Assembly: GCA_947461225.1 (NCBI GenBank)
Contig: CANHJV010000013.1
Coordinates: 1-39,006 of the forward strand
Direction of reading: 5' to 3'
Length of the DNA stretch: 39,006 nt
Origin: Gemmatimonadota bacterium
Lineage (GTDB): Bacteria > Gemmatimonadota > Gemmatimonadetes > Gemmatimonadales > Gemmatimonadaceae
Of this stretch, positions 32,414-33,513 are shown one piece after another. The stretch's first letter is position 1; each line of letters opens with the position of its first letter. Both the position numbers and the translations under genes were made by a program. A model generated the notes under the pieces. That model did no database searches, was not told the origin of the DNA, and worked only from the letters and a program-made list of their open reading frames with translations.

Positions 32414-33052
32414 TTACGTCATTCGACGCGCAGTCTTGGCCCCGGGTAACGCGGCCGCCGGGGCAAACGCGTCCGGCGCGGGAAACGGTGACAAGGGGGC
32501 CCGCTTGGTGTTGGCCCGGACCGGCTGGGCGGCCCACCACTCCTCGAACGACGACACGACGAGTCCATCCGATCGGTCCTGCACCGCGGCCGCCCGCGTG
32601 GCCAAATGATTGGCATACTCGTTCTGCGGATGGCCGGCGTGCCCCTTCACCCACGCCCACTGGGTCTCGTGCATGGCCACGGCATCGACGGCCGCCTGCC
32701 AGAGCTCCACGTTTTCGACGGGACCCTGGGCACGTTTCCAGCCCCGCGCCATCCACCCGCGCACCCAGGACGTCATGCCGTCCACGATGTAGCGCGAATC
32801 GGTCGTGAAGAGCACCGACAGCGGATTGCCCTTCCGCGACATCGCCTCATAGCTGTCGATCACCGAGCGCAGCGCCATCCGGTTGTTCGTGGTGTCGGGT
32901 TCCGACGCCCACAGATCGAAGCGTTGCACCGCCCCGTCGGCCCGACGGAATTCGATCAGCGCGCCCAGTCCGCCGGGGGTATCACCACTCTTGCCGTTGC
33001 CGAGACACGATTCGTCGGCGAACACCGCGACCAAGGGATACTTCGCGCTCAC
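32414..33052 (-). CDS. RNase HI-fold protein with altered active site
   Basis: The 212-residue protein aligns well by eye with E. coli RNase HI: FADESCLGNG, TTNNRMALRSVI, TTDSRYIVDGMTSWVRGW, ARGWK, WVKGHAGHPQNEYANHLAT. Of the four catalytic carboxylates, D10 is kept (D13 here) and D70 is kept (D85), but E48 is Ala (A60 in NNRMA) and D134 is Asn (N148 in EYANH). The residue after D13 is Glu instead of the usual Gly. A Pro/Ala-rich tail of about 50 residues follows the domain. RNase HI normally cuts RNA in RNA-DNA hybrids; here activity is doubtful and hybrid binding is possible. It overlaps the upstream 71-residue gene by ATGA. Confidence 0.88.
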   Translation of the reverse strand: MSAKYPLVAVFADESCLGNGKSGDTPGGLGALIEFRRADGAVQRFDLWASEPDTTNNRMALRSVIDSYEAMSRKGNPLSVLFTTDSRYIVDGMTSWVRGWMARGWKRAQGPVENVELWQAAVDAVAMHETQWAWVKGHAGHPQNEYANHLATRAAAVQDRSDGLVVSSFEEWWAAQPVRANTKRAPLSPFPAPDAFAPAAALPGAKTARRMT

Positions 33053-33264
33053 TTCACGATCTCCATGCCGTCCAGTTCATCGATGTAGATCTCGAGCAGA
33101 CTGCCGGTGCTCGGATGACGTGCCACGATCAGCTCGCGTCCGTTCTGCAGCCGAAGGCGCTCGGGGATCACCAGGAACTCGGTGCCGCGGCGATAGAGCT
33201 GAAGGCGCGTCCCATCCGTGATGGCGCGCTCAAGCTTGTCGTATTGGAGGACGGAGAGGTGCAT
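33049..33264 (-). CDS. 71-residue protein of unknown function
   Basis: The protein (MHLSVLQYDKLERAITDG and on) is predicted to be mainly beta, with LQLYRRGTEFLVIPERLRLQ and a C-terminal acidic strand region (LLEIYIDELDGMEIVK). It has no membrane helix. The ATGA overlap with the RNase HI-like gene indicates coupled translation and supports its being a real gene. A role as partner or regulator of the RNase HI-like protein is only suggested by position. Confidence 0.65.
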   Translation of the reverse strand: MHLSVLQYDKLERAITDGTRLQLYRRGTEFLVIPERLRLQNGRELIVARHPSTGSLLEIYIDELDGMEIVK

Positions 33265-33309
33265 AAGTCACTGCAAGGTACAAGGGCGGTAGGGGCGAGA
33301 GGCGGCTGC

Positions 33310-33495
33310 GGGCCGTGGGCTGCGGGCTTGGGGCCGTGGGTACTGGGTACTGGGTAATGGGTCGGAACCCAAAACCCAGAACACAAAACCCATTACCTCG
33401 AACCAACAGCCAACAGCTCACAGCCGCTGTTCCTGCGGGCTGTGGGCTTGGGGCTGTTGGTATTGGGTAGTGAGTAGTGGGTACTGGGTGTTGGG
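33310..33495. repeat. heptamer-periodic G-rich/C-rich intergenic repeat block
   Basis: GGG tracts start at 33310, 33317, 33324, 33331, 33338, 33345, 33352 and 33359, an exact 7-bp period with loops such as CCGT and TACT. The complementary pattern follows, with CCC at 33368, 33375 and 33389, still on the 7-bp phase. CCAACAG is repeated at 33403 and 33410 with CTCACAG at 33417. A second G-rich array runs 33437-33495 on its own 7-bp phase (GGG at 33437, 33444, 33451, 33465, 33479, 33486, 33493). It fills the gap between the ArgE-like gene and the 71-residue gene. Both G-arrays satisfy the simple G-quadruplex pattern on the plus strand. Confidence 0.85.
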
Positions 33496-33499
33496 GAGC

Positions 33500-33513
33500 G
33501 GGTTCGAGAACCC
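33500..33513 (-). terminator. short hairpin after the ArgE-like gene
   Basis: GGGTTC (33500-33505) and GAACCC (33508-33513) form a 6-bp perfect stem with a 2-nt loop, beginning 8 bp past the stop of the ArgE-like gene on the minus strand. No U-tract follows, so its terminator role is weakly supported. Confidence 0.35.

Follow-up and report, generated by a model that had tools for sequence, protein, structure and literature searches.

Does a homologue of RNase HI that lacks two of the four canonical catalytic carboxylates still cleave RNA-DNA hybrids, or is it retained as something other than a nuclease? This question is raised by a gene located at positions 32414..33052 of the minus strand of contig CANHJV010000013.1 (assembly GCA_947461225.1), which belongs to a Gemmatimonadota bacterium; the window analysed here is the whole stretch of 39,006 nucleotides. 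The gene begins with a GTG codon, encodes 212 amino acids, and shares its start residue with the aligned relatives. Its product is very probably catalytically active, as a type 1 RNase H of the kind represented by LC9-RNase H1, in which the active site would be formed by the residues D-E-D-N; this assignment is drawn from the sequence, clade membership, conservation, coupling between positions, the predicted fold, and the match to the crystal structure 4ibn. By analogy with LC9-RNase H1, the window protein would cleave hybrids in the same way.

The protein scores 98.6 bits against the Pfam family RNase_H (PF00075), well above the curated cut-off of 25.8, and is predicted to adopt the RNase HI fold of type 1 RNases H. 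Residue equivalences were fixed by alignment with PDB entries of E. coli RNase HI. Three of the key residues are retained: D13 (GAC, 33014..33016), D85 (GAT, 32798..32800), and H138 (32639..32641), all on the minus strand, correspond to E. coli D10, D70, and H124, respectively. The site is not of the canonical DEDD kind, which has Glu and Asp at E. coli positions 48 and 134, respectively; these positions are occupied by A60 (GCG, 32873..32875) and N148 (AAT, 32609..32611), and reading both codons directly on the minus strand confirmed exactly what the initial annotation had reported. A glutamate, E14 (GAA, 33011..33013), follows the first catalytic aspartate at the position of E. coli G11. Alignment A1 comprises 25 relatives, in all of which this relocated glutamate and the equivalents of D10, D70, and H124 are invariant. 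LC9-RNase H1 shows the same set of residues, with Glu immediately C-terminal to the first catalytic Asp, Ala at position 48, and Asn at position 134; its structure, 4ibn, is also the PDB entry most similar to the window protein, over nearly its full length including a C-terminal extension. LC9-RNase H1 was derived from a metagenome and crystallised in 2013, and the PDB title of 4ibn describes a type 2 active-site motif; the enzyme type was published in a 2013 article (FEBS Lett 587:1418), and the designation 'DEDN' comes from these titles.

A plausible mechanism can be proposed from the metal ligands of the E. coli enzyme. According to PMC8900815, Asp10 binds both metals, joined by Glu48 at metal B and by Asp134 and Gly11 at metal A, while PMC13310575 proposes that His124 and Asp134 activate the water. 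Since Gly11 is among the ligands of metal A, position 11 already lies at the metal site, and a glutamate placed there can replace Glu48. Glu14 of the window protein, which would represent the glutamate shifted from position 48 to position 11, could thus coordinate the same metal as E. coli Glu48, although this geometry is putative. The resulting D-E order would be that of RNase H2, and Asn would replace Asp as the fourth ligand. In the phylum, this position is occupied by N or D and, in rare cases, by H.

The distribution of the site was followed across Gemmatimonadota by five-letter motifs giving the residues at E. coli positions 10, 11, 48, 70, and 134, so that the window protein reads DEADN. 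A match at an E-value of 0.001 or better was found in 367 of 395 phylum genomes, and motifs were read in 175 genomes with fetched loci, taken from those with such a match or with a match in a later recheck for PF00075; 8 of them could be read only partly, some being cut by contig ends. Among the fully read genomes, DEADN occurs in 133, DEADD in 31, DEADH in 2, and DGEDD in 2, with genome G111 counted twice. The two changes are coupled: in the 167 fully read genomes, DE..A is found in 165, DG..E in 2, and a mixed state in none. The initial annotation's idea that the site is rewired, the Glu next to the first Asp supplying a replacement carboxylate, gains support from this coupling together with the 4ibn title, and the clade it expected for the combination DES/NNRMA/EYANH exists and spans the phylum. 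Homologues with Glu and Asp at the two positions, which had been named as potential counter-evidence, are absent from the fully read genomes of the window's family (f1); Asp at position 134 does occur in other families, to which all 31 DEADD genomes belong. The two DGEDD genomes (G265 and G165), together with the partly read G227, in which E48 and D134 are present, have an RNase HI of another, shorter kind, which outscores the window type in Pfam (116-118 bits) and looks like a replacement. In G111, two copies lie on different contigs, one DEADD and one DEADN (L069 and L056 being the two loci), which could reflect duplication or a mixture of strains. G097 and G293 lack the window-type enzyme and have only another RNase H with the motif NNQAEYEA; this RNase H (loci L065 and L067, from G097 and G293) lies near a recJ-like open reading frame and one resembling a coiled-coil zinc-ribbon protein, both named by eye.

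Two phylogenetic trees were built. For the first, from which the motif columns were removed, thinning reduced 333 rows to 191 and finally to 121; as the named bacteria had dropped out in the process, its outgroup consisted of 16 rows (14 viral, one plasmid, and locus L053). The second tree comprised 130 rows, and its outgroup included 20 named bacteria. On both, the exchange between DE..A and DG..E requires a single change, with a Shimodaira-Hasegawa-like approximate likelihood ratio test (SH-aLRT) value of 94 in each case. The fourth site behaves differently, as 24 changes within the clade are counted on each tree, or 22 when N and D alone are considered. This count is soft, many branches being weak (14 of 118 inner branches are starred in the first tree and 18 of 127 in the second); of these changes, 7 (DEADN label) to 8 (DEADD label) are made unavoidable by starred branches. 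A single clade for the 33 DEADD rows was rejected (p = 0.0002, approximately unbiased test). On these trees, the essential glutamate appears to have moved once and the fourth metal ligand to have changed repeatedly.

Outside the phylum, the arrangement was not detected among the matches listed, that is, 80 of 585 confirmed loci on named genome contigs. Sixty of these loci are of the window type (50 DEADN, 8 DEADD, 1 DEADH, and 1 partial), and the 20 from other records are all DGEDD. Four of the 60 record titles lack the string 'Gemmatimon': L271 (Kuenenia), L286 and L298 (unnamed bacteria), and L303 (Longimicrobiales). In the first of these (CALQGY020000049.1), whose title names Candidatus Kuenenia stuttgartiensis, the RNase HI is present at 75% identity along with the small neighbouring gene described below; this record is perhaps a mislabelled or contaminated bin. 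As far as tested, a viral or plasmid origin was rejected. Of 143 confirmed viral loci, 80 were kept, giving 76 DGEDD, 2 DGEDN, and 2 partly read (EDD) motifs; the one plasmid locus read is DGEDD. Further plasmid and phage matches (764 and 995 records, and 745 in another scan) stood outside this motif reading, and a single-protein viral scan found no relative of the window protein. The two DGEDN loci, L144 and L145, lie on viral contigs and combine the canonical Gly11 and Glu48 with Asn at the fourth site.

Several readings of the same residues compete with an active LC9-type enzyme. The one that survives best, although it is unlikely, holds that the protein is active mainly with Mn2+ or has a shifted substrate preference, such as the cutting of junctions in the manner of RNase H2. 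It is prompted by the D-E order, which is RNase H2-like according to the title of 4ibn, and by the fourth site, where Asn is expected to be a weaker metal ligand than Asp. It overlaps with the favoured reading, from which it differs in metal or substrate only. However, the genome already encodes one RNase HII, as a separate gene on contig C109, and LC9-RNase H1 reportedly resembles RNase H1 in its properties.

A second explanation, related to one of the two readings offered by the initial annotation, is that an RNase H fold with all or most of its catalytic power lost is retained as a binder of RNA-DNA hybrids. The site does lack two canonical carboxylates out of four, and the same E48A/D134N pair was made in E. 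coli as an active-site mutant, as the title of 1wsg indicates. Nevertheless, Glu occupies position 14 in every fully read genome with Ala at position 60, the invariant equivalents of D10, D70, and H124 are residues that a binder could lose, and 4ibn, with the same residues, is titled as carrying a type 2 active-site motif. Moreover, no second PF00075 gene was found in the window's own genome assembly (88.7% complete), so that the putative binder would be its sole detected RNase HI. Retention for hybrid binding is therefore very improbable. Decay was also ruled out, as the window gene differs from those of five same-genus genomes by a nonsynonymous divergence (dN) of 0.014-0.185 against a synonymous divergence (dS) of 0.48-1.15. 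Finally, no support was found for an error of sequencing or a private mutation, either of which is practically inconceivable, since the two nearest genomes of the genus (L004 and L005, 97% identical) and 35 of 35 family f1 genomes with a fully read site, the window's own included, share the same five residues.

Some observations nonetheless weigh against an active LC9-type enzyme. The window protein reaches 133.6 bits against the NCBIfam equivalog for ribonuclease HI (NF001236), below the curated cut-off of 160. The SH-aLRT value of 94 for the branch of the glutamate move falls just below the threshold for a star. In the text of a 2022 RNase H review (PMC9719913), DEDD is the sole motif given for HI/1, and DEDN and LC9 go unmentioned. 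The missing part of the window's genome could hold a second RNase HI. Furthermore, 20 of the 28 phylum genomes without an initial match were rechecked, and 18 of these 20 (18 of all 33 rechecked phylum genomes) yielded no PF00075 gene; the enzyme may thus be dispensable, though some absences are possibly assembly gaps. In G351, which is one such case, the contig stops inside the upstream-neighbour gene, and the absence looks like a gap of this kind. An RNase HII match was found in 17 of 23 genomes, namely the 20 without an initial match plus the 3 in which the RNase HI is foreign.

Directly upstream of the RNase HI gene, at 33049..33264 on the minus strand, lies a gene for a 71-amino-acid protein with a predicted Sm/WYL-like fold, the stop codon of which overlaps the RNase HI start (GTGA). 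Where enough flanking sequence was available, this gene was found within approx. 100 nucleotides upstream of RNase HI in 28 of 29 f1 and 19 of 32 f2 genomes; the arrangement is thus near-constant in f1, patchy in f2, and absent in the other families tested. The window's 71-amino-acid protein has no Pfam match, and its family matches Pfam WYL only weakly (8 of 50 members, best E-value 0.0073), with other families scoring equally (0.0035 and 0.0069). A profile search of the PDB returned one match at chance level (E-value 0.66), and a profile comparison between this protein and the RNase HI alignment found nothing. Other RNases H1 carry a hybrid-binding domain. It may tentatively be suggested, as a rather doubtful extension of the LC9-type reading, that in f1 the RNase HI and the small protein form one unit, in which the latter would be a separate nucleic-acid-binding or sensing subunit substituting for that domain, and that the enzymes of the phylum form a natural series, a single relocation in the active site having left the fourth ligand free to switch repeatedly between N, D, and H. 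Elsewhere in the window, the intergenic region 33304-33502 contains GGGTACTGGGTACTGGGT-type heptad repeats, near which lies an imperfect 58-nucleotide inverted repeat (33368-33495). An 18-mer of the heptad repeat, allowing up to 2 mismatches, matches the genome 39 times, with overlaps counted apart, compared with 2 matches for a reversed control. The window has no Rfam match.

The window enzyme most likely belongs to an unusual yet described type and is neither dead nor new. With the E. coli motif as a yardstick, the site looks lost; it appears instead to mark a phylum-wide enzyme type with a moved glutamate. What is new here is the spread across the phylum, the single move of the glutamate, the repeated switching of the fourth site, and the conserved small neighbour; no paper on the first three was found in mostly open-access literature, only a few searches being aimed at the phylum or the move. 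Natural pairs of DEADN and DEADD enzymes, even within the single G111 assembly, provide a test of the weight of each carboxylate in two-metal nucleases.

LC9-RNase H1 is the closest known system. It reportedly has RNase H1-like activity and properties, and its motif is said to be supported by mutations. The window protein shares its Glu, Ala, and Asn at the same positions and aligns with its C-terminal extension, whereas approx. 40% of the residues differ, and LC9 is a metagenomic clone while the window gene is placed in a genome beside the gene for the small Sm/WYL-fold protein. Relative to the DEDD enzyme of E. coli (RNase HI; for example, 1rnh), the window protein has Ala for E48, Glu for G11, and Asn for D134, and its C-terminal extension adds approx. 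50 residues. The active-site motif of RNase H2 starts with adjacent D and E. RNase HII/RNase H2 (PF01351) thus resembles the window protein in the adjacency of its first two catalytic residues, as the 4ibn title implies, but belongs to a different family. The E. coli mutants D134N and D134H reportedly keep activity, a point that the literature searches made here did not turn up. Both have been crystallised (1kvc and 1kvb, respectively) and carry at the fourth site the residues that occur naturally in the phylum, while the double mutant in 1wsg has the Ala/Asn pair of the window protein; in contrast to the latter, however, all three are engineered and lack the compensating glutamate.
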